Below are positions 32,389-58,586 of a stretch of 64,000 nucleotides of DNA, one piece after another. The stretch lies in assembly GCF_010730955.1 (NCBI RefSeq), contig NZ_AP022578.1:62001-126000 (forward strand), read 5' to 3'. Made by a program: the position numbers and the translations under genes. The stretch comes from Mycolicibacterium aubagnense. GTDB lineage: Bacteria; Actinomycetota; Actinomycetes; Mycobacteriales; Mycobacteriaceae. The number at the start of each line of letters is the position of its first letter. Within the stretch, counting starts at the first letter, position 1. Under the pieces are notes generated by a model, which had not been told where the DNA came from, did not search any database, and saw only the letters and a list, made by a program, of their open reading frames with translations.

Positions 32389-32465
32389 TGTCCGTTCTCA
32401 TTGATTCTGGGGCATTCTCATTGAATCTGGGGTAAGTGCGTGTCTTTCTCATTGAATCTGGGGCA
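32389..32465. repeat. Left end of the Tn7-like element with three TnsB-type sites
   Basis: The motif TTCTCATTGAATCTGGGGCA occurs at 32395-32414 (T for the second A of GAAT), 32415-32434 (ending GGTA) and 32446-32465, all in the same orientation. The first two abut. The terminal TGTCCG precedes the first. Confidence 0.9.
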
Positions 32466-32484
32466 CGAGGCTTAGCGTTTATGT

Positions 32485-33225
32485 GTGCTGACGTCGGCTG
32501 TTTCGGCTGGGCCAGGTGTAGCGAGTGCAGTGGACTTGGAGTTCAACACCCGCGAGGGATGCACGCGGCAATCGCTGGACCGATGTGCTGCAACCCGGTT
32601 TGAGTTGGACTGTTCACCAGTGCGGAATTTCCCCTCGTTTCGAGGTCAGCGTAACTTTCCCGGGCTGTGGTGGTTCGCCACAACCGGCGCACATGTAGGT
32701 CACGAGTCCTGGGTAGAACGTGACCAGTTGATGGCGTTGGATGCCGATCCGGATGTTGTTGGTGTTCTGTCGCAACCATTTTGGATTCATTGGCGTGACG
32801 GCACGCGGCATGCTCCTGACTACTTCGTGCGGCGCCGCGATGGATCTGTCGTCGTAGTCGACGTTCGTGAGGACGACCGGATCTCTGACGCTGATCGGGA
32901 CGTGTTCGATCGGTCTGCCGCCACGTGCGCGATGGTCGGTTGGGATTACCTGCGTGTCGGTTCCCTCGATCCAGTGCTGCGGGCGAATCTACGTTGGTTG
33001 TCGGGTTATCGGCATCCGCGAGTATTGAAGATCGGTTTGGCTGATCAACTGGCGGAGGTCTTCGCTCGGGTCCGTCCGTTGATGGCTGGTGTGCACGCGG
33101 TCGGGACTCCTTTGGTGGTGCTGCCCGTACTGTTTCATCTGCTCTGGCACGGCCGTTTAGTTGCCGATCTGCAAGGAGCGGCACTTGGCGACGACACGGC
33201 GATTGGCCTCGGGACCGGGTGGTGA
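32485..33225 (+). CDS. tnsA: TnsA-like endonuclease
   Basis: A 246-residue protein with the TnsA N-terminal fold: GHESWVERDQLMALDADPDVVGV (catalytic Glu), HAPDYFVRRRDGSVVVVDVRED (catalytic Asp, with Arg where Tn7 TnsA has Lys) and a C-terminal region that in Tn7 contacts TnsC. It would cut the 5' strands and permit cut-and-paste movement. GTG 32485 is used; GTG 32530 is possible. It lies 20 bases inside the left end and 6 bases before the transposase gene. Confidence 0.82.
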   Translation: MLTSAVSAGPGVASAVDLEFNTREGCTRQSLDRCAATRFELDCSPVRNFPSFRGQRNFPGLWWFATTGAHVGHESWVERDQLMALDADPDVVGVLSQPFWIHWRDGTRHAPDYFVRRRDGSVVVVDVREDDRISDADRDVFDRSAATCAMVGWDYLRVGSLDPVLRANLRWLSGYRHPRVLKIGLADQLAEVFARVRPLMAGVHAVGTPLVVLPVLFHLLWHGRLVADLQGAALGDDTAIGLGTGW

Positions 33226-33231
33226 CCTGAC

Positions 33232-35313
33232 GTGCGAACGGGTGTCGTCCGAGAGGGAGACGAAATCCGTTTATCAGCAGGTGTTTTCACCGTCGTAACC
33301 CTGTCGGGCGGATCAGCTCGACTGGTTGACGCTGTCGGCGAGCAGATTGTGGTGCCGCTCTCGCAGCTGATGGTTGATCCGGCATTGGAATTGGTGTCGG
33401 GGTCGCGACCGCCACTGTGTTCTGAGGAAATGCTGGCTGGCATTCCCGAGGCAGCCGTCGAGCAAGCACGGTGGTGGGAGCGCCACATCGTGGAGATCCT
33501 CAGCGGCCGCCCGCCTGGGACGGCCGCGGGCATTCGTCCCCGCCCAGAGTTCGACACGGCGAAACGATCTCTGCGGCAGCGTGAGCTGGCCAAGTTGGAC
33601 GAGCTGCGTGCCGCCGGCCACGACGTGAGTCGGAATGCGTTGCAGCGTCGCCGATTTGCCTACGAACGGGACGGGCTCCTGGGAGTGGTTGACGGGCGCC
33701 ATAATCGGCGGCGCGCGGTATTCGGCCGTGTGGACGACCGTGTCGTCGCCGCGGTGCGGGATGCGATCGAGGGCGAGACCGACCTGTCAACGGGAACGGT
33801 GCAGCGTCTGCAACGGCGGGTCGCCAAGACGCTGGTGGCCACCTATGGTGCCGACGACGCGCCCGCGATGCCGTCGCAGCCCACCTTCTACCGGCTGGTC
33901 AAGCGCCTCGCGGAAGGACGGCACACGTTCGGGTCAGCACGGACGCGGCGATCGCTGTCCAAGCAGCCCGATGGCCCATTCGGGTCGATCACCGTGGTGC
34001 GCCCCGGCGAGATGGTGGAAATCGATTCAACCCTTCTGGATGTACGGGTAGTGCTCGATGACGGCATGGTAGACCGAGTCGAGCTGACTGCGATGGTCGA
34101 CAACGCTACGCGGTCCATCCCGGCCGCGGTGCTGCGACCGACGACCAAAGCAGTGGACGCGTCACTGCTCTTGGCGCGGGCATTGACGCCCGAACCGATG
34201 CGCCCGGGATGGGCCGATGCGCTGCGGATGTCCCGGTCGGTACTTCCGCACCACAGCCTGACCAGTGTCGATCAGCGCCTGGCCGATGCTGCGGCCAGGC
34301 CGGTGATCGCTCCCGAGACGATCGTCTGCGATCACGGGAAAGCGTATCTGTCCCAAACATTTCGGCAAGCGTGCTGCACATTGGGGATCAATCTGCAGCC
34401 GGCTCATCCCGACTGCCCGACCGATAAGCCGAAGATCGAGCGGACATTGCAGTCGGTGGGCACCCTGTTCGCACAGTACGTGGCCGGTTACGTCGGTTCA
34501 TCGGTGGAGCGGCGTGGGAAAAACGCCGAGGACGACGCGGTGTGGTCGATGATTGAGCTGCAGGCGCTGCTGGACGAGTGGATCATCGCGGTGTGGCAGA
34601 ACCGCCCCCACGATGGCCTGCGGGATCCGGTGACGCCGGGGAAAGCGTTGTCTCCCAACGAGAAATACACTGCCCTCGTTGAGGTGGCTGGCTATGTACC
34701 GGTCCCACTGGACGCCGACGACTATATCGAATTGCTTCCCGTGCAGTGGCGCACAATCAACAGTTACGGGGTCCGGATCAACCATCGCACCTATGACGCC
34801 AAGGCGCTCAACCCATACCGGCGCCAGCATTCCGGGGTCGATGCCCGTAACGGACAGTGGGAAGTGCACTACGACCCGTATGACGTGTCGAGGATTTGGG
34901 TGCGCAATCACCACGAAGACGGATGGCTGGCCGCGACGTGGACGCACCTTCGGTCCTCGCCGGTGCCGTTCGGCGAGACACTGTGGCGCCACGCCCGCTC
35001 CGTAGCCGACCGCAGAGGGGCCCAGAAGACCCAGGAAGCGGAGATTGCGGCCATCGCGGAGGACTTGCTGGACCGCGCCGCCGCTGGGCCGCAGCAGCAG
35101 ACGAAAGCCGAGCGCCGAGTGACTGGACGGACCAGCGCCGCGAGCGCCGGCCGGGACTGGCCGGACCCGACGGAATCATCCGAACATCATGGCCCGTCAC
35201 CGTCGGAACGGGCCGCCGACAACGAGACTTTCGACGATGACGGCGAGATGGCGGAGGTCATACCCCTGCCGGTGTTTGATGCACGCAAGGAGGCCCAAAC
35301 GTGGCGACTGTGA
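33232..35313 (+). CDS. tniA: TniA/TnsB-like DDE transposase
   Basis: A 693-residue integrase-like transposase. After N-terminal DNA-binding domains, the catalytic core shows Asp near 265 (MVEIDSTLLDVRVV), Asp near 367 (IVCDHGKAYLSQ) and Glu near 403 (DKPKIERTLQS), followed by a Mu-type C-terminal beta domain (HRTYDAKALNPYR) and an acidic disordered tail that in relatives contacts the ATPase. It binds the repeated end motifs and joins 3' ends to the target. Its end overlaps the next gene by 13 bases. Confidence 0.93.
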   Translation: MRTGVVREGDEIRLSAGVFTVVTLSGGSARLVDAVGEQIVVPLSQLMVDPALELVSGSRPPLCSEEMLAGIPEAAVEQARWWERHIVEILSGRPPGTAAGIRPRPEFDTAKRSLRQRELAKLDELRAAGHDVSRNALQRRRFAYERDGLLGVVDGRHNRRRAVFGRVDDRVVAAVRDAIEGETDLSTGTVQRLQRRVAKTLVATYGADDAPAMPSQPTFYRLVKRLAEGRHTFGSARTRRSLSKQPDGPFGSITVVRPGEMVEIDSTLLDVRVVLDDGMVDRVELTAMVDNATRSIPAAVLRPTTKAVDASLLLARALTPEPMRPGWADALRMSRSVLPHHSLTSVDQRLADAAARPVIAPETIVCDHGKAYLSQTFRQACCTLGINLQPAHPDCPTDKPKIERTLQSVGTLFAQYVAGYVGSSVERRGKNAEDDAVWSMIELQALLDEWIIAVWQNRPHDGLRDPVTPGKALSPNEKYTALVEVAGYVPVPLDADDYIELLPVQWRTINSYGVRINHRTYDAKALNPYRRQHSGVDARNGQWEVHYDPYDVSRIWVRNHHEDGWLAATWTHLRSSPVPFGETLWRHARSVADRRGAQKTQEAEIAAIAEDLLDRAAAGPQQQTKAERRVTGRTSAASAGRDWPDPTESSEHHGPSPSERAADNETFDDDGEMAEVIPLPVFDARKEAQTWRL

Positions 35314-36329
35314 CCGAGATTGCGGCGGTGGGTCAGTTAGAGGATCGCCGCCAGCCGACCACGACGCTGGAGGGCTGGCGGCGTTTTGTTGATGCCGATC
35401 CGCCGGAGTTCACGTTGCTCGCCGACGACGAGTGGGCCAGCCTCGGTGAGGACGAGCGGACGGCCTACAACGAGGCCCGGGTTGCGCATCATTCGGAGCT
35501 GGTGGTGGTCACCACGTCGGCGATCGAAGCGATCACCCATCAGGGCCGGCTGTTGACATTGCTCAACCAGCGCGAGATCGGGGCCCGGCGCGGGCTGATC
35601 ATCTCCGGCGGGGCAGCGACGGGGAAAACTACGGCGATCAAGCAACTGGGTCGGTTTCACGAATTGCGCACCCGTGCACGGTTTCCCGGCGATGAGAGCC
35701 GGATTCCGGTGGTGTATGTGACGGCCCCGCCGAAAGGGTCGCCCCGCAAGTTGGCGATGGAGTTCGCACGGTTTCTGGGGCTTCCCACGCTCAATCAGCG
35801 GATGAACGTGACCGATATTTCCGATGCCGTGTGCCAGGTGCTCATCGATGCCCGTACCGACATCGTGGTGGTCGATGAAATCCACAACCTCAACCTCGAC
35901 ACCCGCGCCGGCGAAGAACTGTCCGACCACCTCAAATACTTCACCGAGCATCTGCCTGCGACATTCGTTTACGCCGGGATCGAAGTGGAACGCTCGGGGC
36001 TGTTCACCGGCACGCGGGGACGGCAGTTGGCCGGCCGTTGCGGGGTGATCCACACCAGCGCATTCCCCGACGCCAAGGAGTGGCGACAACTCGTCGCCGC
36101 CATGGAAGGTACCTTGCGTCTGCATCGACACGAACCGGGAAGCCTTGTCGCCCAGGCCCGTTACCTGCACCGCCGCACCGGCGGGATGATCGGCAGCCTG
36201 GCCCACTTGATCCGGGCTTCAGCAATCCAAGCGATGCTCGACGGCACCGAGCACATCACCCGCGAGGCCATGGACGATATTTTGATCGACTACGCCGCCC
36301 ACACGGCCGCGGCCCGCACGGCCAGCTGA
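35301..36329 (+). CDS. tniB: TniB/TnsC-like AAA+ transposition regulator
   Basis: A 342-residue AAA+ ATPase with Walker A GGAATGKTT (about 105-112), Walker B IVVVDEIHNL and sensor regions downstream. Family members form ATP-dependent filaments on target DNA, linking the TniQ-selected site to the transposase and giving target immunity. The start GTG 35301 lies within the transposase gene end, showing translational coupling. Length and order are usual for Tn5053/Tn7-like cores. Confidence 0.93.
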   Translation: MATVTEIAAVGQLEDRRQPTTTLEGWRRFVDADPPEFTLLADDEWASLGEDERTAYNEARVAHHSELVVVTTSAIEAITHQGRLLTLLNQREIGARRGLIISGGAATGKTTAIKQLGRFHELRTRARFPGDESRIPVVYVTAPPKGSPRKLAMEFARFLGLPTLNQRMNVTDISDAVCQVLIDARTDIVVVDEIHNLNLDTRAGEELSDHLKYFTEHLPATFVYAGIEVERSGLFTGTRGRQLAGRCGVIHTSAFPDAKEWRQLVAAMEGTLRLHRHEPGSLVAQARYLHRRTGGMIGSLAHLIRASAIQAMLDGTEHITREAMDDILIDYAAHTAAARTAS

Positions 36330-36330
36330 C

Positions 36331-37173
36331 GTGGCAACTGTCAGGCCGTGGCCGCGCGGACCACGCCAGCGGCTCCCGCGAACGATCGCACCGTTCCGTT
36401 GGGAAGCCGTATCGTCCTACATCGACAGGCTGGCCCGCGCCAACCATATCGGCGTCTCCACACTGCGCGGCCATGTCGCCGAATCATGCGCAGCCCGGCC
36501 GCGACCGGACTGGTTGGCCGTCGTCAGCGGCCAACCTGAGCAGGTAATCCGGTCCCGTCTCTGCGGGCTTGCTGGCGACCCCACCGCGCTCAAGCAATAT
36601 CTCCGCCGCCCTTTGTGTCAAAGATGTATGGCACGCAAGGGAATACACGAACCCGTCTACTGCTACCTGCCTGCACATGTCTCCGTATGCCACCGTCACC
36701 GACGCTGGATCGGTTCACCAACGCGCGTTCTTGACGACCAGGTGGATCTTCGTGACCGGCCCACGGTGCTCAGTGCCGGGCGCACGCATCGGCGCTTGGC
36801 CCGTCAGTATTCAGAGGTCGACCTTCATGACGCCTTGGGCGACGCCCGCCACATCCTGGTCTTCTGGGCTCACGCAGAGCGTCACGTGGCGGCGGGGATT
36901 CTGCAGAATGGCCTAGAAGCGCACGTGGTGGCCTACCCCGATGTGATCGCCGTAGCCGCAACATTGCTCACAGCTCGCCCTCGGGTTGAACAGCCCAGGA
37001 CGCCAACGGAACCCGCCTGGCCGACGCTACTGCTCGACCGCATCAACGAACGCACCGGCGCCCACCATGCCGACGCCACCCCCGTCGAGCAATGGGCGCA
37101 GTACCGACGCCTATTCGCCACTGCCGTATTGACGACACGCTCAGACGGCGCAGAACTGGCGTGTCGCGCTTAG
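36331..37173 (+). CDS. tniQ: TniQ/TnsD-like target-selection protein
   Basis: A 280-residue TniQ-family protein with an N-terminal domain (FRWEAVSSYIDRLARANHI) and the zinc-finger block PLCQRCMARKG, CYLPAHVSVCHRHRRWIG. TniQ/TnsD proteins choose the target site. At this length it lacks the long C-terminal sequence-recognition region of Tn7 TnsD, so it may not use a fixed chromosomal site. The actual target, an ORF on plasmid-like DNA, agrees with this. One base separates it from the ATPase stop. Confidence 0.87.
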   Translation: MATVRPWPRGPRQRLPRTIAPFRWEAVSSYIDRLARANHIGVSTLRGHVAESCAARPRPDWLAVVSGQPEQVIRSRLCGLAGDPTALKQYLRRPLCQRCMARKGIHEPVYCYLPAHVSVCHRHRRWIGSPTRVLDDQVDLRDRPTVLSAGRTHRRLARQYSEVDLHDALGDARHILVFWAHAERHVAAGILQNGLEAHVVAYPDVIAVAATLLTARPRVEQPRTPTEPAWPTLLLDRINERTGAHHADATPVEQWAQYRRLFATAVLTTRSDGAELACRA

Positions 37174-37309: not shown

Positions 37310-38158
37310 TCACCGGCGGCGCTGCTTGCCGGTGATTGGCCGGCGGTGGGTGGTCCAGCACGCGGCCACCGCGCTGACCACCACAGCGAAGGCGGCAATG
37401 ACGCTGGCCGGGAGGGCGTGGTCCTGCAGCCATCCGGTCGCGGTGGCCGACCAGCCGGTGAGCAGGTTGCCGCCGCTGGCGGTGTGCCCGGTGGCCGCGG
37501 GCAGCCAGTACCACGCGAGGTAGGCGCCGGTGGCGATGAGGACAACGGCGGTGACGCGGGTCCCGTGGCGGGCGAGGATACCCAGATGCCGGGTCAGGGC
37601 CGTGCCGGCGATGGCGGTGCCGACGCTGACCAGCATCAAGATGGTGGCGGCACCGGCTGTGTATGCGGTGAACACTGCCAGCAGACCGCCCCATCCGCTG
37701 GTGGCCTGGGCCTGGGCGATCACCGCGAGCAGTACCCCGAAGGTGCAGGACAGTGACGCCAGGGCGTAGCCGATTCCGGCCGCGAGCACACCACCGGCTG
37801 TTGGGGAGTCCGGCCGATGACGCGTCCGGGCAGGCATACGCAGACCGATGGTGCGGCCGGTGAGCATGAAGCCGCCCAAGATGGCCAGGGTGAGCCCGAT
37901 CGTGATCCCGAGCCAGGGAGCAGCCGTCACCAGGGTCCGGGCACCGGCACTGATCGCGATACCGGCGAGGGTGAGGGTGCCGGTGAACCCGATGGTCAGG
38001 ACGGCCCCGGTGCGCAGTGCCCGGGCCAGCCGCACGAGCACCGCATCGGTGCCGCCGGTGGCGATGGTGCCGGTGATCCACGCCGGTAGCAGCGCGAACC
38101 CGCAGGGGTTGACCGGGGCGAGCATGCCAGCGGTAAACGCGAGCGCGAGCAGGTTCAC
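37310..38158 (-). CDS. ccdA: CcdA/DsbD-like membrane thiol-transfer protein
   Basis: A 282-residue membrane protein of the CcdA family with the two conserved Cys regions NPCGFALLPAW in the first helix and SLSCTFGVLLAV in the fourth. It passes electrons from cytosolic thioredoxin to an outer thioredoxin-like protein. GTG 38158 overlaps the upstream thioredoxin-like gene by four bases, so the two form the usual pair. The C-terminal 80 residues add an extra membrane segment and basic tail. In this cargo it likely supports the cupredoxin or mercury proteins. Confidence 0.85.
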   Translation of the reverse strand: MNLLALAFTAGMLAPVNPCGFALLPAWITGTIATGGTDAVLVRLARALRTGAVLTIGFTGTLTLAGIAISAGARTLVTAAPWLGITIGLTLAILGGFMLTGRTIGLRMPARTRHRPDSPTAGGVLAAGIGYALASLSCTFGVLLAVIAQAQATSGWGGLLAVFTAYTAGAATILMLVSVGTAIAGTALTRHLGILARHGTRVTAVVLIATGAYLAWYWLPAATGHTASGGNLLTGWSATATGWLQDHALPASVIAAFAVVVSAVAACWTTHRRPITGKQRRR

Positions 38159-38541
38159 CGTGCGGCGCTGCTGCCGAGGGCGGCCAGGATCTGATCCTGG
38201 GACGGGGCGTGGCCGCGGTAGCTGATCTGCCCGGACGGGTCGATGACGAGGGCGGTGGTCGGCGCGGTCACCTGGTAGCGGCTGGTCAGGGCCCCGTTAG
38301 TATCGACGACCGCGGGCAGGCTGGTGCCGCCGATCTGGTCCAGGAAGTGGCGAACATCGGCGGGTTTCTCGGTGGGGACGATGTCGACGGCTAGGAACTT
38401 GGCGCTGCCTCCGGCTTTCTCCACGGCCGCCCGAGCAGCGGCCAGGGATTTACCGCCGCCGACGCATTCGCCGCACCCGTAGGAGAAGAACAGGATCGCG
38501 GTCGGGGCGGCAGCGGGCAGTTCGACGGTTTTGCCGTCCAC
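38155..38541 (-). CDS. Thioredoxin-like protein paired with CcdA (N-terminus uncertain)
   Basis: A thioredoxin-fold domain with FFSYGCGECVGGGKSL (CxxC), the cis-Pro region TSLPAVVDTNG and a C-terminal helix. GTG 38541 is the only start seen. The frame continues 60 bases upstream with a Thr/Ser/Pro-rich linker typical after a lipoprotein signal (TTSNPTSPPHANATTQ) but then hits TAA and has no signal peptide. The export signal has probably been lost or the 5' end altered. Outer-face thiol reductase is the expected role. Confidence 0.68.
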   Translation of the reverse strand: MDGKTVELPAAAPTAILFFSYGCGECVGGGKSLAAARAAVEKAGGSAKFLAVDIVPTEKPADVRHFLDQIGGTSLPAVVDTNGALTSRYQVTAPTTALVIDPSGQISYRGHAPSQDQILAALGSSAAR

Positions 38542-38846
38542 CGTGGTCAGTGTCGCCGCCGTCGCCTGGGTTGTGGCGTTGGCGTGTGGCGGTGAGGTCG
38601 GATTGCTGGTTGTTTATCTGGGGTTGTATTCGGGTGTGTTCTGTTGTTCCCCCTTAGGTTATGGGACTGGTCTGGGCGTAAGCGGATACGATTGCGTTGC
38701 AGGGTGTTTCCGTTTAGGTGGCGATTCGGCGGCTCTTGTGGCTGAAGTGGTGGCGCGCCGGATTGGTTTGGCGGTGCCTGGAATTCCGCGCCTGCGCACT
38801 CTGTTCGCGATTCGGGCAGGTCGGCGCTGCGGTTTCGGGTTGGGTT
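38542..38846. other. Low-GC interval, no complete gene
   Basis: Besides the linker described for the thioredoxin-like gene, I see no start with ribosome site on the minus strand. Reading frames on the plus strand lack coding bias. It may be decayed sequence. Confidence 0.4.
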
Positions 38847-39245
38847 TTATGCGGTGAGGGCGTCGATTGCGGCTTGCAGTTTTGTCGTGGCTTGGTCGGC
38901 GATGTCTTTGAGTGCGGGTTCGTCGGTGACGTCGACCATCAGCATGGGGTTCATTGCTTCGATGATCACCGTGCCCGTGTCGGTGGGGTGGGCGCGCACG
39001 ACGACGTTGCAGGGCAGCAGTAACCCGATCTGGCGGTCAATGGTGACGGCCTGGTGGGCGAGCGGGGGGTTGCAGGCGCCCAGGATGAGGTAGTCCTCCA
39101 TGTCGGTGCCGAGTTTGGCTTTGATGGTCGCTTTCATGTCGATCTCGGTGAGCACGCCAAAGCCTTGTTGTTGCAGGGCGTTTCGTGTGCGGGTGACGGC
39201 GTCATCGAAGTCGGTGTGCAGCGTGGTGGAGATCGCGATGTTCAT
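38847..39245 (-). CDS. DUF302-family protein
   Basis: A 132-residue protein with the DUF302 fold signature: FDDAVTRTRNALQQQGFGVLTEIDM, LGACNPPLAHQAV and IGLLLPCNVVVRAH. Members are small alpha/beta proteins often encoded with metal-resistance or redox genes. Their reaction is unknown. The two conserved cysteines (in GACNP and LPCNV) could bind a soft metal. It follows the Met-rich gene in the cupredoxin operon. Confidence 0.85.
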   Translation of the reverse strand: MNIAISTTLHTDFDDAVTRTRNALQQQGFGVLTEIDMKATIKAKLGTDMEDYLILGACNPPLAHQAVTIDRQIGLLLPCNVVVRAHPTDTGTVIIEAMNPMLMVDVTDEPALKDIADQATTKLQAAIDALTA

Positions 39246-39390
39246 CGGTGGATTCCTCTGGGTGCTGATCGTTCACGACGGCAGATACGTCGATGAGATG
39301 GGTGTGGCGGCGTGCGCGGGCTGCCCGGGTGAGACCGGTGCGCCTCGTTGGTATGTGTTGTGCCCCTGCGTGATTGGTGGGTTAGTGGTG

Positions 39391-39726
39391 TCACCAGGGG
39401 TCCATCATCGGTCCCCAAGGGCCGGGGCCCATCATCGGTCCCCAGGAGCCGGGTCCCATCATGGGGCCGGGCCCCATCATGCCTGGGCCCCAGGAACCGG
39501 GCCCCATCATGCCTGGGCCCCAATAGCATCCGGGGTCCCAGCCGTTGGGGGTCCAGCAGCCCGGCGGGCCTTGCGTCGGAAGGTCCGAGCCGATCGGCGC
39601 CCACACTCCGGTTCGCGGTTGCGGGGTAGCGGTGTCAGCGCTGCTGACGGCGGTGAATGTAGGGACCAGCGCGCTGACCAGCGCGGCGGCGGCCAGTGCC
39701 GTGATCGTGGTGCGTGCGGTGAACAT
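39391..39726 (-). CDS. Secreted protein with Gly-Pro-Met-Met/Trp repeat tail
   Basis: ATG 39726 gives a signal peptide (about residues 5-30, cleaved near SSADT) and a 75-residue mature protein. The first part holds two Cys (GCWTPNGWDPGCYWG); the tail is a run of GPGMM, GPGSW and GPMM units with about 14 methionines and several tryptophans. Met/Trp/Cys composition suggests an exported Cu(I) or Hg(II) binder. No named family. It is encoded just after the cupredoxin gene, which has a similar MMGP-rich head. Confidence 0.68.
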   Translation of the reverse strand: MFTARTTITALAAAALVSALVPTFTAVSSADTATPQPRTGVWAPIGSDLPTQGPPGCWTPNGWDPGCYWGPGMMGPGSWGPGMMGPGPMMGPGSWGPMMGPGPWGPMMDPW

Positions 39727-39748
39727 GGCGGCGGTCCTTTCCTGGTGC

Positions 39749-40474
39749 TTATCGGGGCGGCCCGGTGACGTCGAGTTCGGCGGACATACCCGAGACGTAG
39801 TGACCGGCGATGTTGCAGACCAGCTCGTAGCGGCCCGGCGGCAGGGTGATGGTGGTCCAGCCCAGGGCGCCGGGGGCGATGCCGTAGTCCGGTGATTGTT
39901 CGTCGCCACGGTCGGCGGCGCAGCTGCGGGAGGCTTCACCGAGGCTGCCGGTCTCATCGACGGTGCCGTCGGGGCCGCTGGGGCGCCGGCCCGCGAATTG
40001 TCCTGCGGGCAGCGGCAGTACCACCAGCTCGTGCACCATCGCACCGGTGTTCAGGACGCGGAATGACACCGGTCCGGCGGGCACCGTGGCCGGGGACAGG
40101 TAGATCCGCATCATGCCCATGCCGGGCATCATCCGCGGCCCCATCATCATGTGCCTGCCGGGGCCCATCATCGAGCCCATGTCGGTGACGTTGACATCGA
40201 CAACCGTCCCCGGCAGCGCCGGCGCCGCGCAGGACGTCGGGCCGCCCGGGTATTGGCGCCACGGGCCCATCATCGCCGGGCCCCACGACCCCCACATTCC
40301 CGTGCCGCCCGGATACCCGCGGTAGGCGGGCCAGGCCGGGTAGGGGCCGGCGCTGGCCGGTGGGATCGGGCGGGCACCGGGGCCGGTGCGGTACGCGATC
40401 GCGGTGGCGCCCAGCCCGAGCACCAGCGAGCTGGCCGCGATGGCCACGACCAGCCACAAACGGTGAGTTTTCAT
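39749..40474 (-). CDS. Exported cupredoxin with Met-rich N-terminal region
   Basis: ATG 40474 gives a signal/anchor (LVVAIAASSLVLGLGATAIA), a Pro/Gly/Met-rich head of about 110 residues (GSWGPAMMGPW, MGPGRHMMMGPRMMPGMGMM) and a C-terminal cupredoxin domain. Copper ligands are visible as His in MVHELVVLPL and Cys-x4-His-x4-Met in LVCNIAGHYVSGM, the type-1 copper pattern of sulfocyanin/plastocyanin-like proteins. It probably binds copper outside the membrane, as an electron carrier or sink. It is co-transcribed with the SHOCT gene upstream. Confidence 0.83.
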   Translation of the reverse strand: MKTHRLWLVVAIAASSLVLGLGATAIAYRTGPGARPIPPASAGPYPAWPAYRGYPGGTGMWGSWGPAMMGPWRQYPGGPTSCAAPALPGTVVDVNVTDMGSMMGPGRHMMMGPRMMPGMGMMRIYLSPATVPAGPVSFRVLNTGAMVHELVVLPLPAGQFAGRRPSGPDGTVDETGSLGEASRSCAADRGDEQSPDYGIAPGALGWTTITLPPGRYELVCNIAGHYVSGMSAELDVTGPPR

Positions 40475-40479
40475 GGCGT

Positions 40480-40767
40480 TCAACGGTGTTCGCGCAGTGC
40501 CGTCATGCGCTGGCGGTATTCGGTGTCATCGATCTCCCCCCGCGCCAGGCGTTCGGCCAGCATGTCCTCGGCGGTGCGGGCCCCGGGTGCGGCGCCCGCG
40601 GCCCCGTGATGGGTGCCGCTCAGGTAGCGCACCGCCGCCACGATCGCGGTGATCAGCACCGCGAAAAACAGCACCGCGACCACGGCAGTCAGAATCCAGC
40701 CGCCCCAACCCCATCCGCCGCCGTAGCCGCCGTTCCACATCCAGCCATTACCACCCCAACCGCACAT
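40480..40767 (-). CDS. Membrane protein with C-terminal SHOCT domain
   Basis: ATG 40767 follows AGGAGG by 5 bases. The 95-residue product has a Trp/Gly-rich head (MCGWGGNGWMWNGG), one membrane helix and a SHOCT motif at the end (AEDMLAERLARGEIDDTEYRQRMTAL). SHOCT proteins are small, oligomerising and often sit in metal or stress operons. Five bases separate it from the cupredoxin ATG, and a TTG there overlaps its stop, so they share an mRNA. Confidence 0.82.
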   Translation of the reverse strand: MCGWGGNGWMWNGGYGGGWGWGGWILTAVVAVLFFAVLITAIVAAVRYLSGTHHGAAGAAPGARTAEDMLAERLARGEIDDTEYRQRMTALREHR

Positions 40768-40894
40768 GACGCCTCCTGGGCCGTGTCGTAGGAACAAGTC
40801 GATCGCTTGACCACGTGATCGCTGCCGCCAGCATGCATCCGGTGGGTGCCGGGCCTCCAGAGGCGAAGGTCCCCACTTCGCCGTCCTGCTATAG

Positions 40895-40912
40895 CATCGT
40901 CAAATGACGATG
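40895..40912. promoter_or_regulatory. CmtR-type operator over a leaderless start
   Basis: CATCGTCA and TGACGATG are perfect 8-base arms around AA, and the ATG start at 40904 lies inside. TATAGC at 40890-40895 is a -10 element 8 bases before the ATG. The repressor would cover its own transcription start and start codon. Confidence 0.6.
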
Positions 40913-50970: not shown

Positions 50971-51074
50971 CGAACAGTGATCGAATCATGCATCAAACGA
51001 GATCACTTTGGCAAATAGACTGGCCAGCAGCCCTTTTCATGCCCTATATCCGCTAGCCTAAAACCCCGACTCCA

Positions 51075-52297
51075 TCAGGCAACCAGGTGATTCTCGCCCA
51101 TCAGATGCAATTCCCGAGCGTTCCCGTAAATCGACAACGTCGTCTGCACATCGGCGTGACCCAGACGGCGCATCACCACATGCGGCTCCACCCCGGCCAA
51201 CAGCAGCGCCGTGGCATGGGTGTGCCGCAACCAGTGCGGTGTCCAGTCCGCCGGCAGCATGTCCGGGCAGCGCGCCGTGATCAGATCGACCTTGTCGTAG
51301 ATGGTGTCCGCGCTCAGCGCCGCGTACTTCACCCGCGCACCAGGTTCACGAACACGAAATGCGTCGACAGGTCCCCGACCGCGATATCGGCGCCGTCGGC
51401 GATCAGCTGCCACACGTACTCGCTGTAGAGGGCGACCAGGTCATCGCCGATGAAGATGCGCCGCGGCCCCGACTTGGCCCGCAGGCCGCGCCGATGATCA
51501 TCACGCCCGGCCACCAGCACCGACGGGGTACCGCCACCGGCGATGTCAAAATCCTGGTGCCGCAACGACAATGCCTCACCGATCCGCATCCCGGTCTCAG
51601 CGAGCAACGCGAAAAAGAACCGGTCCCGCAGCCCCGCCGGGCCCCGCGACCATGCGCCGGTGACCGTTTGCACGCTGCACGCATCCAGGATCGCGTTGAC
51701 CTGCTCGGGCAGCAGCACCGGCGTCTCGGAACGTTGCACCGCCCGCAGCCGATACAACGGCCCGTTGGTCTCGGGATGGGGCCCCACGCCGGCCAGAAAC
51801 GGCGCATAGCGGCCCCGGCGGCTGCTGCGGGCATGCGTCGAATACAACCGGCGGTACGGGCGCTCCAAATCATGCGCATCGGCGAAATACCGGTACATCG
51901 CCAACACCGCGGCGCTGCGCGGCCCCAGCGTGGACTCCGCTCTGATCGTCTCGGGTTCGCCGATGCGCGCCACCCCCGGTAAGTCTCCGCGGCGCATGTA
52001 GGTCAGGAATGTGCCGAACAGGCTGGCCGGGAAGTCATCCCAGGCGGTACCTGTGTGCTCCAGCACCGTCCACCACGCGGCCAGCCCATAGGCGTACGCG
52101 CGCACCGTATTTGGCGACGCACCCTGATCACGAAGAAACGCAAGGTACTCGCGGGCCGGGGCAACGGGCAGCTTGTCGACGCCCACCACCGTGTAGGTGG
52201 GCGGGCGATCGGCAAAGCACATCCGCTGCACCGCAGCCATCGTCAGCAGCGCCCCCGCGCCGGCGCGGTCACCGCGGCCGGCCCTTACGGAAATCAT
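51075..52297 (-). pseudogene. Tyrosine recombinase 1 with one frameshift
   Basis: ATG 52297 overlaps the XRE-ImmA stop (ATGA). The N-terminal core-binding domain (YLAFLRDQGASPNTVRAYAY) and Arg motif (ETGMRIGEALSLRHQD) are in one frame. Near 51341 one base is lost, and the catalytic end (HWLRHTHATALLL, RRLGHADVQTTLSIYG) is in the next. The joined protein is about 407 residues. It is similar in type to Tn554 TnpA. A 104-base gap separates it from recombinase 2. Confidence 0.78.
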
Positions 52298-53523
52298 CGA
52301 GCCGCACCACCCGCGACGGGGCCACGCCCACCGGCGAGGAGTGCGGCCCGCACGACGCTCGCCGCCATCGGCTGGCGCTCGGCGGCCGGCGCCGGCCGCT
52401 GGGTCGCCAGGAACCAGTCCAGTACGTCGGCCGGATAAATCATCGACTCCCGCGCGGCCAGCATCGGCACCGAGGCGCCGCCGTAGCAGCGTTCCACCCA
52501 CTTGCGCAGCAGCCGCGGCCGCTCCGGGGCACGGTCATTAAAGCCGGGCTCGGTCATGCCCCACGTGTGCCCGGTGGCCGGGTTGATCCGCCGATGCAGT
52601 TGCGTGGTCAGCATTTTCGCTCGCTCTGCCGGGATCAACCCCGAATCGCGCAGATGCATGATCAGCGAGCCCAGCGACAACCCCCACTTGTCTTTGAGCG
52701 GCCGCAGATTCAGTAGCGACAACAACCGGGGCAGCTCATCGGCGATCACCGCCGCCGGGGCCAGCAGTTCGGTGGCGAACCGGTTGGCTTCGAGCTCATC
52801 GGCCGAGCTCACCGAGCAGTATGCGTGCGAATGCAACACCAAATGCCCGAGCTCGTGGGCGATCGTGAACCGGGTCCGCTCCCAGGAATCACTGTCCCGC
52901 AACACAATCAGCGGCCGGTCCCGCATCCGGCCCACCCAGCTCGAATAACCCAGATGCTTCTCGTCGCGGGCCGGAGCCGGGGATGCGGCGAACTCGCTTT
53001 CCCATTCCCCGGCCACCCGGCGCCGCACGATCACCGGTGCACCGAGGCGCTCGGCCTCGTACATCAAATCATCAAGGGGCTCATCGTGTTCCACGCCCAT
53101 CGCTGCTCGCAGACGTGCCGCGGCCGCGGCGATCGACCGGTGCGTCAGCTCTTCGGGAGCCATCGTCGGAATCTTCACCGGCGGCAGCTTCGACCGGTCA
53201 TCGAGGTCGGCGAGGAAATCGCCCGCCAGCGACGCGAACGTCGCCAGAAAGTCCTGCTCGCCCATCGTCATCGACTTGGGCGCGCGGAACAACAACTCCT
53301 CCGTCGACACCCGGGTCTGCGGAGCCGATTCGAAAAATGCTTCAGGGAAACGGAACAACCCCGCCAGCAGCTCGACATCGGCGTCATCGAGTCGGATGAT
53401 CTGCGTTTTTTCGATCTGGGACTGCCGGGCAGGGCTCCACCCGGCGGCTTCGGCCACCGTCTTTGCTGTCATTCGTCGCAACAACCGGGCCTGTCGGACC
53501 CGGACACCAAAAACCTCAATCAT
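52294..53523 (-). CDS. XRE-HTH/ImmA-IrrE-type metallopeptidase
   Basis: A 409-residue protein with an N-terminal XRE helix-turn-helix (RQARLLRRMTAKTVAEAAGW) and an IrrE/ImmA (COG2856) peptidase domain whose zinc motif HELGH is at 223-227, followed by ELEANRFATELL with the third ligand. Such proteins sense a signal and cleave a repressor, as ImmA cleaves ImmR in ICEBs1. It overlaps recombinase 1 by four bases. The best inference is control of the recombinase genes of this operon. Confidence 0.85.
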   Translation of the reverse strand: MIEVFGVRVRQARLLRRMTAKTVAEAAGWSPARQSQIEKTQIIRLDDADVELLAGLFRFPEAFFESAPQTRVSTEELLFRAPKSMTMGEQDFLATFASLAGDFLADLDDRSKLPPVKIPTMAPEELTHRSIAAAAARLRAAMGVEHDEPLDDLMYEAERLGAPVIVRRRVAGEWESEFAASPAPARDEKHLGYSSWVGRMRDRPLIVLRDSDSWERTRFTIAHELGHLVLHSHAYCSVSSADELEANRFATELLAPAAVIADELPRLLSLLNLRPLKDKWGLSLGSLIMHLRDSGLIPAERAKMLTTQLHRRINPATGHTWGMTEPGFNDRAPERPRLLRKWVERCYGGASVPMLAARESMIYPADVLDWFLATQRPAPAAERQPMAASVVRAALLAGGRGPVAGGAAR

Positions 53524-53587
53524 CGTGCGCTCAATTCAACGTCACCGGGTTGGGATACCGGCAAGCACCCAACACTGTGCCTGATAG

Positions 53588-54294
53588 CTACGACAACTCC
53601 GGCGGGGTGCCATCCTCCTCGTCGAACGCGGGATTCTCGTCGACCTCGGTGAAATCCTCGTCGCGGCGCCGCTTCGCCAGCCTCGTCGACCCCTGCGAAC
53701 CGCCACTGGGCTGACCCAAGCCCACCGTGGTGCTGCGTTCCTCGAAGATCGCTGCCGGCAGCGGCGTCCTGCCGTACAGCACCTGAATGTTGTCCAGCAA
53801 CAGGCCAGCAGCCAACGCCGCCCGCCGAAGAACCCTCGGCTGTCCGGCCACCACAACAGGTACTCGCGATACCCCTGCGGCTCGGGGATGCCGTCCTCGC
53901 CGCCGATCGGATGGCCAAGTTCCTCTTCCAGGCTCAGCTGCTCCCCGCCGGGTACATACTTCACCGGCTCGATCAAGCTGCCGTCGTACTTGCGGGGATG
54001 CTTGCGCACATAGATCCGCGACCCCTTCCCGTCCAGAAGGAGCACACCCATTCCGTTGCCCGCCTTGACCTTCAACGTCGAATCGGGTCGTTGTCGCCGA
54101 AGTCTCGACATCAAAAAAGTCTCCAGCACAGAGCACGACGTGGTAATCGACCGCACATTGCTGCCCTGATCGCCGAAACGGTCCGGAACCTCCACGTGGC
54201 GAGCAGCCAAATCGCCGTGCGATTCGCCCAACACCAGTGCATGTTGCGCGACAAGCTCCTCGACCAAGGCCTGAGGATCGTCGTGTTGCTTCAT
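53588..54294 (-). pseudogene. Hypothetical protein upstream of XRE-ImmA, with one frameshift
   Basis: ATG 54294 gives MKQHDDPQALVEELVAQHAL and, through PDSRGFFGG, an unrecognised soluble protein of about 155 residues. One base is lost near 53822, and coding continues in the next frame as LAAGLLLDNIQVLYGRTP to an acidic end (DEDFTEVDENPAFDEEDG). The total is about 235 residues. It is the first gene of the XRE-ImmA/recombinase operon and could be the substrate or partner of the peptidase. No family assigned. Confidence 0.6.
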
Positions 54295-54372
54295 GGGGTA
54301 AAGATTTACCCCGGTGCACAACACTCAACTTCGCGCCACGCCGCAAGAAACCATACGATTTTCTGGCCCTCA

Positions 54373-54387
54373 TACCCTAAAAGGGTA
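54373..54387. promoter_or_regulatory. Palindrome TACCCT-AAA-AGGGTA, candidate operator of the XRE-ImmA operon
   Basis: Perfect 6-base arms lie about 80 bases before the first gene of the operon, in an AT-rich interval (54295-54437). A second partly symmetric site, GGGTACATGTCCCC, overlaps its right arm. Likely bound by an HTH protein of this operon. Confidence 0.5.
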
Positions 54388-54437
54388 CATGTCCCCTTGG
54401 ATATTTGCGCAGATCAACACGCATAAATGGCGAATAT

Positions 54438-54560
54438 TTAGAATTTAACCCCAGATAAACGTGGGGCCGATTGGCCGCACGCGGTCAGCGCGCCCGCTGC
54501 CAGCATCACAGCCGTAACGCCCGCCCACCTGTGGGGTGTAAACGAACGCGTTTCAGACAT
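54438..54560 (-). CDS. Truncated 40-residue lipoprotein after the MerT-like gene
   Basis: ATG 54560 lies within the end of the MerT-like gene, indicating translational coupling. The product is essentially a lipoprotein signal: basic start, hydrophobic core AGVTAVMLAAGALTAC with lipobox LTAC, then 13 residues and a stop. Sequence beyond becomes AT-rich. It looks like the head of a MerP-like or other binding lipoprotein whose body was lost at a junction near 54450. Confidence 0.5.
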   Translation of the reverse strand: MSETRSFTPHRWAGVTAVMLAAGALTACGQSAPRLSGVKF

Positions 54561-54875: not shown

Positions 54876-55517
54876 TCAGCTGCAGCAGCCGGGGTGGGCA
54901 GTTGGCGGGGTATGGAGCTGGGTAAGGATTTGTGTGGTCAGGGCTGCGCCGAGTTGGTGGGCCTCAGCGACGCTGACGATCTGACCTTCGGGGTGCTCGG
55001 CGAGCCACGGCGCGGCGTCCTGCGCGCAGGTGAAGTAGTGCACCTGGTTGCAGAATGAGGACCGGATCGAGGTGAGGTCGTCGGGGTTGACCAGCGAGAC
55101 CACCGCGGTCTCGGGCTGCACGCTGGTGACACCGTTTTCGCCGACCGAGACCCTGATCGGGTGCCCGCTGACGGGTGATTCGGATTCGATGCTGGCGGGC
55201 CGGTCCAGGATGGTGGGAAAGATGAGGGTGTCCAGGGCGCACCAGGTGTAGAGCTCTTGGCCGGCCACGGTGAATCGGTGGCGGGTCGGGCGCAGGGTCA
55301 GGCCCTGGCCGACGATGCGGCCCTGCTCGTCGTATTCGGTGTCGGGTACCGCGGCCAGACGCCGGGTCACCTCGTCAACCGGGAGGCCGACGGCCGCGGC
55401 GAGCGCCTCCACGGTGACCGGCTCGCCGGCGGCGAGCAGCCGCAGCAACGGCACCAGCATCGTCGGGTCGAGCCCGGACTCTTCCGGAATGGTCAGGCGG
55501 TCAAGGAAATTGGGCAT
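54876..55517 (-). CDS. merB: Organomercurial lyase MerB
   Basis: A 213-residue MerB that splits carbon-mercury bonds to release Hg(II). The catalytic residues are visible as Cys and Asp in YTWCALDTLIFP and Cys in SSFCNQVHYF, corresponding to Cys96, Asp99 and Cys159 of R831b MerB. An N-terminal winged-helix-like domain precedes (VTVEALAAAVGLPVDEVTRRL). It ends HPGCCS, a Cys pair not part of the usual catalytic set. ATG 55517 lies 27 bases after merA. Confidence 0.93.
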   Translation of the reverse strand: MPNFLDRLTIPEESGLDPTMLVPLLRLLAAGEPVTVEALAAAVGLPVDEVTRRLAAVPDTEYDEQGRIVGQGLTLRPTRHRFTVAGQELYTWCALDTLIFPTILDRPASIESESPVSGHPIRVSVGENGVTSVQPETAVVSLVNPDDLTSIRSSFCNQVHYFTCAQDAAPWLAEHPEGQIVSVAEAHQLGAALTTQILTQLHTPPTAHPGCCS

Positions 55518-55543: not shown

Positions 55544-56947
55544 TCAGGATGCGCAGCAGGACAGTCGGGACATATCGGCGCTGAAGGACTGGGCGGCGAT
55601 TTTGATGCCTTCGGCCATGGTCAGATACGGGGCCCAGGACCCGGCGACCTGGTCGACGGTCATCGCGGCGTCGAGGATGTAGACCGCGGCGGCGGCGATC
55701 TCGCCAGCATCCTTGGCGACGGCGGTGATGCCGTGGATGCGGCCGGTGCCGGCGTCGGCGACGAGTTTGATGAAACCGCGGGTGTCTCGGTTGACCACCG
55801 CACGCGGCACATGTTTTAGCGGCAGCACCCGGCAGTCGCACCGTGTCCCGGCGGCGAGGAGCTCGGCCTCGGTCGTCCCGGCCGCACCGACCGCGGGGCT
55901 GGTGAACGTCACGCGGGGCAGATGGCGGTAGTCGACCCTGCGGCCGGCGTCGGTGAAGATGTTGTCGGCGACCATCGCGCCGTGATGGGCGGCGACGTAG
56001 ACGAACTCGCGGTGCCCGGTCACGTCGCCGGCCGCCCAGATCCGTGGGTTCGACGACTGCAGCCCGTCGCTCACCACGACCTCGTTGTTCTCGCCGGTTT
56101 TGACCTGCACCGCTTCGAGATTCAGGCCGTCGGTGTTCGGACGGCGGCCGGTGGCGACGAGGACTTTCGCGGCACGGAACTGCTGCGTTCCGCCGGTGAT
56201 GGTCGCGGTGACCGTGACCTGATCGTCGGCCTGCTCGACCTCGCTCACCGTGGCGCGGCGCACCACCCGGATGCCGTCGTCGGCGAACACCTCCAGCAGC
56301 GCCATGCCGACTTCCGGCTCTTCCTTCGATGCCAGCGTGGAGCGGACCAGCACCGTCACCGTTGACCCGAGCCGGGCGAACAGTTGCGCCTGCTCCAACG
56401 CGACGTAGCCGCCGCCGATCACCAGCAGCGACTCCGGGACCTCGGTGACTTCCATCGCGGTGGTCGAGGTCAGGTAGGCGACGCCCTCGAATGCGGGCGG
56501 GATGACTGGGTTCGCGCCGGTGGCGATCAGGTAGTGCTCGGCCTCGATGGTGGCATCGCCGACCTCGATGACGGGCGCGTCCGGGGTTCCGGCGAACCGC
56601 GCTTGGCCCTGAATGCGCTGCCAGCCATACGATTCGGCCACGTTGAGGTACTTCTCTGAGCGCAGCGACTCCACCAGATCGTGCGTGCCGGCGATCAGGG
56701 CCGCCATGTCCACCGGGCCGGCCGTGGTGGCGATCCCCGGGAACCGGGCAGTGTCGGCTGCGGTATGCCGGGCCTCGGCCGCTGCGATCAGGGCCTTTGA
56801 CGGCACGCAGCCGGTGTTGACACACGTGCCACCGAAGATGCCGCGCTCGATCATGACGACGGACTTGCCGAGCGCGGTAGCGCGGATCGCCGCGGCCATC
56901 GCCGCGCCGCCGGAACCGATGACCGCGAGGTCCAATCCCTGACTCAT
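55544..56947 (-). CDS. merA: Mercuric reductase MerA
   Basis: A 467-residue flavoprotein disulfide oxidoreductase that reduces Hg(II) to Hg(0) with NADPH. FAD motif AVIGSGGAAMAAA, redox site GGTCVNTGCVPSKAL, NAD motif LLVIGGGYVALEQAQL and the C-terminal mercury-binding Cys pair LSCCAS are all present. It lacks the N-terminal HMA domain seen in many MerA, as in other actinobacterial forms. ATG 56947 is chosen; TTG 56968 lies in the operator. First gene of the mer operon, divergent from merR. Confidence 0.95.
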   Translation of the reverse strand: MSQGLDLAVIGSGGAAMAAAIRATALGKSVVMIERGIFGGTCVNTGCVPSKALIAAAEARHTAADTARFPGIATTAGPVDMAALIAGTHDLVESLRSEKYLNVAESYGWQRIQGQARFAGTPDAPVIEVGDATIEAEHYLIATGANPVIPPAFEGVAYLTSTTAMEVTEVPESLLVIGGGYVALEQAQLFARLGSTVTVLVRSTLASKEEPEVGMALLEVFADDGIRVVRRATVSEVEQADDQVTVTATITGGTQQFRAAKVLVATGRRPNTDGLNLEAVQVKTGENNEVVVSDGLQSSNPRIWAAGDVTGHREFVYVAAHHGAMVADNIFTDAGRRVDYRHLPRVTFTSPAVGAAGTTEAELLAAGTRCDCRVLPLKHVPRAVVNRDTRGFIKLVADAGTGRIHGITAVAKDAGEIAAAAVYILDAAMTVDQVAGSWAPYLTMAEGIKIAAQSFSADMSRLSCCAS

Positions 56948-57003: not shown

Positions 57004-57393
57004 GTGAGAATCGGGAAGCTCGCCGAGGCGACCGGGGCCACCACCGCGACGCTGCGCTACTACGAAGACGAAGGCCTGCTCCCGCCCGCCGAACGTTCCC
57101 CGGCGGGGTATCGCGACTATGCCGCCGACACGATCGCCCGGGTCGGCTTCATCCGACGGGGACAGGCCGCCGGGTTCAGCCTCGCCCAGATTCGGCAGAT
57201 CCTCGACATCCGTGACAGCGGCCACGCGCCGTGCACGCACGTGCGCGACCTGCTCGACATCCGACTGACCGACCTCGACGAGCAGATCAGCGCACTGGTG
57301 GCACTGCGCGAGACCATCGCCCGGCTGCGGCAGGGCGCCGAAAGCGTCGACCCGGAATCATGCAGCGCCGATGACGTATGTCGATACCTCTAG
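57004..57393 (+). CDS. merR: MerR-family regulator of the mer operon
   Basis: GTG 57004 follows GAGGAG. The 129-residue protein has the MerR winged helix (KLAEATGATTATLRYYEDEGL) and metal-site cysteines 77, 120 and 126. The last two are 6 apart, closer than the 9 of classic MerR (Cys117/Cys126), so the metal loop resembles ZntR/CadR-type sensors. Its place beside the perfect operator and merA argues for Hg(II) response. Specificity is not certain; the CadD gene downstream could also be its target. Confidence 0.87.
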   Translation: MRIGKLAEATGATTATLRYYEDEGLLPPAERSPAGYRDYAADTIARVGFIRRGQAAGFSLAQIRQILDIRDSGHAPCTHVRDLLDIRLTDLDEQISALVALRETIARLRQGAESVDPESCSADDVCRYL

Positions 57394-57531: not shown

Positions 57532-58173
57532 GTGGGATTTCACTCGAAGCTGGTCGCATTGGCCGTGCTGAGCCCAGCCACACTCGTTCAGGCGATCGCC
57601 ACCTTCGCCATCACCAATATCGACGACATCGTGGTCCTCGCGGTGATGTTCGGCCAGGCGCCCGGTCATCGTGGCGCAGCCATCCGAGTGACCGCCGGTC
57701 AGTACCTCGGCTTCACCGCCATCTTGGCAGTTTCGGTCGGCGGCGCACTCCTGGGTGCCACGCTGCTTCCTCCAGCCGCACTGCCGTACTTCGGGCTGCT
57801 GCCCATCGTGTTGGGGCTGCGGGCGGCATGGCTGGCCTGGCGGGATCGCCGCACCCAACCGGCGCCGACCGATGATCCCGCAACACTGTTGACGCCTGGC
57901 ACCTGGCAGGTCGCAGTCATCACCTTCGCCAACGGCGGCGACAACATCGGCGTGTACGTTCCGATCTTCGCCGTCTCAACGATCGCCACCATCGGTGTTT
58001 ACATCATCGTGTTCCTCATCGGTGTGGCCATCTGGTGCGCGGCCGGCCGATATTTCGCCTCCCACCCGATCATCGCCAAAGCACTCTCACGCTGGGGCCA
58101 CATCGTTCTGCCCGTTGCACTGATCACAATCGGGGCCCTCATCCTCATCAAAGGCGGAGCGTTCGCCCTCTAG
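57532..58173 (+). CDS. cadD: CadD-family cadmium resistance transporter
   Basis: A 213-residue membrane protein of the CadD family with six hydrophobic segments. Conserved acidic motifs are in the first helix ([19 protein letters not shown]) and in the fourth ([16 protein letters not shown]). It confers cadmium resistance by efflux or sequestration at the membrane. GTG 57532 is used. It is 138 bases after merR on the same strand, with nothing recognisable between. Confidence 0.85.
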
Positions 58174-58175
58174 CT

Positions 58176-58331
58176 CGGAGCAACTTCACCACTCAGGGCC
58201 AGGAGGCGCTCCTGCATCGGCATGTGTTGGCGTTCAACCACTTTGGTGATGTCCCGGCCCGTATCCGCTATGACAATCTAAAACGGGCGGTGGCCAAGGT
58301 GCTCAAAGGCCGCAGCCGGCACCCGAACTAC
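58176..58331 (+). pseudogene. Fragment of an IS21-family IstA transposase
   Basis: About 52 codons match the IstA region [20 protein letters not shown], with [11 protein letters not shown] after it. Both ends are missing. It lies between CadD and the right end of the Tn7-like element. A residue of an earlier insertion. Confidence 0.7.
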
Positions 58332-58443
58332 CAACACGAGCGAGCGCACCACAGAATCATGATCGTGTGTCACGAGAGACACGATCACAGTAGTTATACC
58401 GAAGACGTACCCGAGCCAACGGAATCGACAGGAGACCATTCCG

Positions 58444-58486
58444 GCTACCCTGCTGCGCTCGCAGCCGGGCGCGGAAGCAGGGTAGC
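58444..58486. repeat. Inverted repeat, 11-bp arms, near the right transposon end
   Basis: GCTACCCTGCT (58444-58454) and AGCAGGGTAGC (58476-58486) are perfect arms around a 21-base GC-rich loop. It abuts the innermost right-end site. It could act as a terminator protecting the end, though no U-run follows. Confidence 0.5.
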
Positions 58487-58586
58487 CCCAGATTCAATGA
58501 GAAACGTCGCGATCGAAATTCTCATCCAATCTGGGGCAATGCAGGTCAGACTAGTAAATGTGCCCCAGATTCAATGAGAACGGACA
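58484..58586. repeat. Right end of the Tn7-like element with three TnsB-type sites, one inverted
   Basis: The end motif is present at 58561-58580 (outermost), at 58519-58538 in the opposite direction and with two changed bases (TCATCCAATC), and at 58484-58503. The terminal six bases CGGACA complete the inverted repeat. Confidence 0.9.

Follow-up and report, generated by a model that had tools for sequence, protein, structure and literature searches.

Tn7 and Tn7-like transposons have TnsA, TnsB, TnsC and TniQ, TGT...ACA ends with several transposase sites each, and a 5-bp target duplication, and they are found at glmS, tRNA genes, comM or guide-matched sites. In Tn7, the tnsA-side end is the one nearest to the TnsD site. 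The Tn5053/Tn402 transposons, or res site hunters, carry a TniA, TniB and TniQ core, mercury cargo and the resolvase TniR, lack TnsA, and prefer plasmid recombination sites. Telomeric transposons of linear bacterial genomes, reportedly described by Hsieh et al. in Science in 2025 and said to be related to Tn7, are aimed at telomeres. The IS1202 family (ISAjo2 group, Acinetobacter) has been published as "dif site hunters"; in the text available from PMC10132070, its members use a single TnsB-related DDE transposase without TnsA, TnsC or TniQ, have TGT ends and a 5-bp duplication, and lie 5 bp from the XerC site of chromosomal dif or plasmid pdif. Here we analyzed a window of 64,000 nucleotides from Mycolicibacterium aubagnense (NZ_AP022578.1, positions 62,001 to 126,000), which holds a Tn7-like element of 26,198 bp at 32389-58586. 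From the comparison of its relatives, the probable target of this mercury-carrying transposon is a conserved palindrome of 13 bp, CGTCACWGTGACG, flanked by A/T-rich sequence. In mycobacteria the palindrome accompanies dif, the site at which replicated chromosomes separate, on its XerC side at a distance of about 300 bp, and some of their plasmids have it too. A preliminary description of this DNA had called the target choice open, and the palindrome beside dif is now the likely answer.

The element resides on C2, a plasmid-like contig of 266,447 bp in an assembly of two contigs (6.3 Mb). Its terminal inverted repeats, at 32389-32414 (+ strand, the TnsA end) and 58561-58586 (- strand), agree in 25 of the 26 outermost bases with one mismatch. 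The 16-base terminus TGTCCGTTCTCATTGA was found exactly twice in the window, at 32389 (+) and 58586 (-), with no further copies in the whole assembly, and a search of the assembly with the element's TnsB gave one match. GTTGA is present on both borders (32384-32388 and 58587-58591, + strand) as the target duplication. Three repeats of about 20 bp, predicted to be of the transposase-binding type, lie at each end: those on the left are direct (32395, 32415 and 32446, within 32395-32465, + strand), and those on the right (58485, 58519 and 58562, within 58485-58580, - strand) include an inverted middle copy at 58519-58538. Nearly identical copies of 10,347 bp, each flanked by a 5-bp duplication of its own (L019 GTGGG, L022 GCATG, L048 CTGGT), confirm the boundaries. 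The preliminary description had proposed base-exact ends and the GTTGA duplication, and had named chance recurrence of the ends as what would count against them; both proposals hold, and such recurrence was not seen in the 6.3 Mb.

Four core genes on the + strand follow the left end. The tnsA-like endonuclease gene (32485-33225; its start may be internal) matched NF033179 at 289.8 bits (cut-off 110), and its protein had no Pfam match. The tnsB (tniA) transposase gene (33232-35313) has the PF09299 (Mu-transpos_C) domain, matched the PDB TnsB structure 9y7b in a profile search (E 1.2e-11), and shows by eye the DDE residues D265, D367 and E403. The tnsC (tniB) AAA ATPase gene (35301-36329) matched PF05621 (TniB; E 9e-17) and ShTnsC (7m99; E 3.6e-6). 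The tniQ-like gene (36331-37173) encodes 280 amino acids, the likely target-site adaptor; the protein had neither a Pfam nor an NCBIfam match, and its identity is supported by zinc ligands and fold. These matches bear out the Tn7-like identity with one short TniQ that had been read from the letters alone. By its TnsA-TnsB-TnsC-TniQ set, together with the 5-bp duplication and the multi-site TGT...ACA ends, the element is a Tn7-like transposon, predicted to be of the cut-and-paste type.

It resembles Tn7 also in oriented insertion, with the tnsA-side end nearest to the target site, and differs from described Tn7-like elements in its probable dif-linked palindromic target, its loose spacing and its TnsA of an actinobacterial type (NF033179). 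With Tn5053/Tn402 it shares the TniA/TniB/TniQ core, the mercury cargo and the preference for plasmid recombination sites; TnsA is present here, and no resolvase family was recognized among the 29 open reading frames (ORFs) of the element chosen for scanning. It is probably aimed at a replicon-terminal structure as telomeric transposons are, although theirs are the telomeres of linear replicons and here the sites are linked to dif on circular chromosomes and plasmids. With the IS1202 family it has in common the TnsB-related transposase, the TGT ends, the 5-bp duplication and the neighborhood of dif; unlike the IS1202 members described in PMC10132070, it has TnsA, TnsC and TniQ; insertions of its family lie typically about 60 bp from a separate palindrome, and the dif-like site of the window is 275 bp beyond its right end.

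The palindrome, CGTCAC(A/T)GTGACG, was first seen by eye outside the left end of the element in the window and in three Mycobacterium plasmids (L003-L005) whose TnsB is 78% identical to that of the window. In the window the candidate target CGTCACAGTGACG (32286-32298), the sole exact CGTCACNGTGACG match on C2, is located 91 bp beyond the TnsA end. Genome contigs were then scanned, which yielded 69 loci. The first set comprises 30 mycobacterial insertions whose left end was mapped and that had some left flank, the four that had suggested the motif among them. In 18 of these 30, GTCACNGTGAC lies no more than 200 bp outside the left end, and in one of 15 with a mapped right end it lies within 200 bp of that end. 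Among random 200-bp windows drawn from the left flanks more than 400 bp off the element, 228/54,000 (0.4%) contained it. A second set was obtained by searching 396 genomes of the genus with TnsA (52 matched at 1e-40), which yielded 20 further distinct insertions, 12 of them with the palindrome within 200 bp of the left end (10/13 and 2/7 in two batches). The check proposed in the preliminary description, other insertions and a shared target, was thus productive: in 30 of 50 distinct insertions the TnsA end is no more than 200 bp from the palindrome (26 of 46 when the four motif-suggesting ones are left out), at a distance of 15-165 bp with a median of 62 bp. Comparison demonstrates, at the level of sequence, the ends, duplications and core genes, the association of palindrome and dif, and the clustering and orientation of the insertions.

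Several loci were dropped before counting: those whose contig starts at the element end (L014, L028, L033, L034, L183, L196, L197), those in which the end pattern gave no left end (L020, L032, L205, L206, L214, L217, L220, L227, L232-L235, L237-L241), non-mycobacterial loci, and second-set loci whose last 15 flank bases were the same as in an insertion already listed. Five TnsA matches stayed outside the counts (G305:C51, two in G398:C66, G430:C239 and G445:C40). L175:1576-5349, a 3.8-kb segment with TGTCCGTTCTCA ends located 49 bp from a dif-side palindrome, has no matching duplications and is perhaps a deletion derivative; it was found via its motif and was therefore excluded.

Insertions occur to the left or to the right of the palindrome, the TnsA end being turned toward it. 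The order is dif-palindrome-element in L017, L021, L031, L037, L038, L047, L195, L199, L201, L204 and L207, and palindrome-element-dif in the window, L019, L022 and L048. This use of both sides, with the TnsA end turned to the palindrome, suggests that it is the palindrome, and not dif, that determines where and in which orientation the element inserts. In genome G457 (L218), two different elements each lie beside their own palindrome, the palindromes being 5.4 kb apart and the TnsA ends facing. Single palindrome loci have also been hit twice, at 15 and 49 bp (L026 and L047) and at 76 and 59 bp (L015 and L024, the 59 bp read from the L015 sequence), so that L047 and L015 are the natural uninterrupted sites of insertions L026 and L024. 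A second copy in G087 (L212) lies 47 bp from a palindrome that is far from dif: the two sites are at 0.14 and 3.57 Mb, respectively, on a contig of 7.6 Mb.

The palindrome is itself a conserved companion of dif, named here by likeness to the Frankia dif quoted in PMC3025954; according to the text available from that paper, no actinobacterial dif had been experimentally confirmed at that time. WCGTCACWGTGACGW is present in 119 of 148 genus genomes (reversed control in 1), and the actinobacterial dif core GATAANNNACATTATGTCA is a single copy in 130 of the 148 (control in 0). Among 50 mycobacterial dif loci chosen by two dif patterns alone, one of which (L133) may be a second dif-like site of its genome, the other match lying elsewhere there, 47 have the palindrome on the XerC side within 1.5 kb (41 of them at 200-400 bp), and none has it on the XerD side. 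It was missing in L136, L141 (at a contig edge) and L162. The GTCAC arm gave 66 matches around these loci, and each of the 59 other arm permutations gave at most 2. In a sample of the family, the palindrome occurred in 76 of 121 genomes (7 of the same genus) and 26 of 31 genera, with the control in 6 genomes; of four such loci examined, two (L166, L163) lie no more than 300 bp from a dif core, which in one case has a mismatch. At the dif locus of the window's own genome (L117), GTCACAGTGAC lies 678 bp away.

Plasmids appear to have a similar arrangement in part. The window has a dif-like XerC/XerD site, CCGATAATAGATATTATGTC, at 58861-58880 (+ strand; none in 100 shuffles), and when the flanks of the element are joined its distance to the palindrome becomes 361 bp and its polarity matches that seen on chromosomes. 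In plasmid L005 and in L170 (a 152,685-bp contig stretch with no element end), a less exact dif-like site has the palindrome on its XerC side, about 0.6 kb away. L003, L004, L169, L171 and L172 have palindromes with no recognizable dif-like site in the stretch examined, and an exact one is absent from the complete L003 and L004 plasmids. A lone XerD-arm-like TTATGTCA at 32263-32270 of the window, 15 bp left of the palindrome, has no XerC arm. A parS/ParB site had been considered for the first plasmid cases, which lie near partition genes, and was dropped when the palindrome was found beside chromosomal dif. A hairpin or cruciform was also rejected: dyad symmetry beyond ±6 does not rise above the column expectation except at ±11 and ±12 (z 4.0 and 2.4) and falls below it at ±7 and ±9. 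Because there is no consistent symmetry past ±6, a predicted protein-binding site is likelier than a hairpin.

We propose that a dimeric protein on the palindrome, either a host accessory protein of the terminus or dif or TniQ itself, would recruit TniQ and TnsC, and that TnsC would position TnsAB such that the TnsA end points to the palindrome from a distance of about 60 bp. Such recruitment from palindrome complex to TniQ, TnsC and TnsAB is drawn by analogy with Tn7. As palindrome and dif are left intact, the element could sit safely and ride between chromosome and plasmid. It also seems rather probable that Mycobacteriaceae have a hitherto unrecognized palindromic element of the chromosome terminus, to which some protein binds and which lies on the XerC side of dif at about 300 bp, that some plasmids copied it with a dif-like site, and that this Tn7-like family homes to the complex and uses it as a common docking site when cargo moves between chromosome and plasmids.

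A number of observations weigh against targeting of the palindrome. Twenty of the 50 insertions have no exact copy within 200 bp on the left (L016, L018, L024, L025, L027, L030, L035, L036, L043, L069, L072 and L073 in the first set; L202, L208, L210 at 395 bp, L219, L228, L229 at 230 bp, L230 and L236 in the second). The flank of L024 was only 58 bp long, and the homologous L015 locus places the palindrome 59 bp away; in L025 the palindrome is at the right end instead, at 65 bp. Several misses are second copies in their genome (L230, L072, L073, L219 and L229), and some lie 0.23-1.6 kb from a palindrome, among them L035, L036 and L069, which are near dif and 0.34-1.6 kb from the palindrome. 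The motif in the window alone is within chance (5 places with up to 2 mismatches vs. 2.8 expected), and CGTCACNGTGACG occurs at 6 places in the genome vs. 3 for the reversed control; the case is therefore a comparative one. TniQs of palindrome users are as low as 34-42% identical to the window TniQ (34% in L038), and the spacing is tighter in Tn7 and in CRISPR-associated transposons (CASTs) than here. An empty site of the window insertion, which the preliminary description had suggested looking for, was not found, although those of L026 and L024 were: the left flank had no PLSDB match, the right flank matched in its toxin-antitoxin part only, and 395 other genus genomes gave nothing save three short chance-like matches. 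Finally, a Kribbella relative of 7,015 bp (L044:7273-14287; ACTGC is its probable duplication) lacks the palindrome, and its left end is 54 bp from dif.

The target appears to vary among more distant relatives. In L167 and L168 (plasmids of M. avium and M. kubicae), TnsB is about 48% identical, TniQ has 366-389 residues, and the tnsA start (11237 in either plasmid) is separated by about 280 bp from that of a mobF relaxase gene on the opposite strand (10952 and 10959). This branch is possibly an oriT/mobF-targeting Tn7-like group. The Kribbella dif case and these mobF-side elements imply that target choice shifts within the family. L006:8888-23799, from a Rhodococcus plasmid, holds three Tn7-like cores side by side, two of them with facing tnsA starts 0.6 kb apart, which suggests another shared target. 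L006 and L041, the latter a 4.9-kb Rhodococcus element with a matching duplication and little room beyond its core, have TGACATACCCCCAG in common.

As to what reads the palindrome, we consider a bound host protein to have about an even chance of being right and favor it over TniQ alone because the spacing is loose and TniQ diverges between elements that use the palindrome. The competing version of palindrome targeting, in which TniQ alone reads the site through its helical C-terminal domain in a TnsD-like manner and no host protein is necessary, is only a little less credible. No other selector was recognized among the scanned ORFs, the TniQ model has a helical C-terminal part of 140 residues, and the symmetric site would suit a TniQ dimer as in type I-F CAST structures. 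No PDB entry covers this C-terminal part convincingly and its structural matches are weak and mixed, which shows nothing either way. The range of 15-165 bp is loose for a rigid TniQ-TnsC ruler, the low TniQ identities also weigh against this version, and the palindrome is conserved beside dif in element-free loci as well.

A reading in which XerC/XerD or FtsK at dif recruits the element, as proposed for the IS1202 family, and the palindrome only helps, is improbable. The Kribbella insertion would fit it, and so would the targeting of dif by IS1202 members (in the text available from PMC10132070), but the insertions track the palindrome on either side, including the L212 copy far from dif, and in five second-set cases with dif on the left it is 337-668 bp from the element end. 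We give slightly less weight still to accumulation of insertions in the terminus, through tolerance or a TnsE-like preference for the end of replication, with the palindrome as a bystander of dif. Many chromosomal cases do have dif within the examined stretch, TnsE of Tn7 favors terminating replication, and L035, L036 and L069 lie near dif away from the palindrome; the spacing and the constant facing end strain this explanation, as do the near absence of the palindrome at the other element end, L212 and the plasmid cases. RNA-guided targeting by a hidden guide, as used by some Tn7-like elements, is highly improbable, given no Cas domain among the scanned ORFs, no Rfam match, no spaced repeat array in the three core stretches searched, and longest common words of 10-13 nt between 14 target flanks and the base element, the same as in shuffles. 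The reading that we prefer remains a protein complex on the palindrome.

The main text of a survey of 6,549 Tn7-like transposons (PMC8649781) does not contain "dif" as a whole word. Our literature search for Tn7-like, TnsA or TnsC with dif and for Tn7-like with mycobacteria (including the text available from PMC12907356 and PMC11472951) gave no report of this target; subscription papers and most preprints lay outside its scope, and priority is not asserted. When a palindrome at mycobacterial dif was searched for, no relevant title came up. A Tn7-like family thus gains a likely target without a report in the literature searched, and a conserved palindrome is exposed beside dif in mycobacteria and in two of the four loci examined from related genera, a directly testable candidate for an accessory site of the chromosome terminus or of dimer resolution. 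The results suggest how a near-identical metal-resistance element reaches chromosome-size contigs and a 266-kb plasmid-like contig in different mycobacteria, hint at a second evolutionary route, besides IS1202, to parking beside dif, and make the palindrome a candidate insertion address of such transposons that merits testing.

The cargo was the remaining subject of the preliminary description, which had announced a complete 26-kb transposon with mercury, cadmium/lead and copper handling genes. Its ends stand, but the 26-kb unit is, by comparison with its relatives, a composite of a 10,347-bp mercury transposon and a nested insert of 15,848 bp. The mercury genes are certain: merB (organomercurial lyase, 54876-55517, - strand; NF009710, 298 bits) and merA (mercuric reductase, 55544-56947, - strand; TIGR02053, 538 bits) both scored above cut-off. 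For cadmium the support is fair, a cadD-like transporter gene (57532-58173, + strand) reaching 89 bits with PF03596 (Pfam cut-off 26) and only 87.5 bits vs. the NCBIfam cut-off of 181.65. Lead was not upheld (CadR-PbrR model, 99 bits, cut-off 151), and copper is weak, with cupredoxin-type matches below cut-off in the nested insert. A MerR-family regulator (57004-57393, + strand; PF13411, PF09278) completes the set of merA, merB, regulator and cadD-like gene in the base unit, which also includes, at 37310-38541 (- strand), a membrane protein (CcdA-like by eye, no Pfam match) and a thioredoxin-like protein (below cut-off). The insertion may have disrupted a small gene, as had been suggested; this is unproven and rests at most on a 123-codon + strand frame that spans the joined flanks and also overlaps the palindrome.

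The 10,347-bp unit recurs at nine loci. L016, L019, L022, L033, L034 and L048 have it with at least 99.9% identity over both shared parts, L017 and L039 match it over a slightly shorter right part, and L014 is a longer internal variant; the hosts are M. rhodesiae, M. chubuense, Mycolicibacterium sp. CH28, Mycolicibacterium sp. GF69, M. nebraskense, M. lehmannii, M. novocastrense, M. llatzerense and M. arenosum. The nested insert (38614-54461) is bounded by 20-bp inverted ends, 90% alike, that carry GTTTATCTGGGGTT, and contains several tyrosine recombinases, ArsR and CDF-like pieces, an MFS protein and an XRE/ImmA protein. Over 9.9 kb it is about 97% identical to an M. aubagnense plasmid from mine sediment, with a query that reached 52000 only. 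The XRE and ImmA/IrrE-like protein (52294-53523) matched the PADLOC RmrA models (E 6.5e-49) and is a possible defense or regulatory gene.

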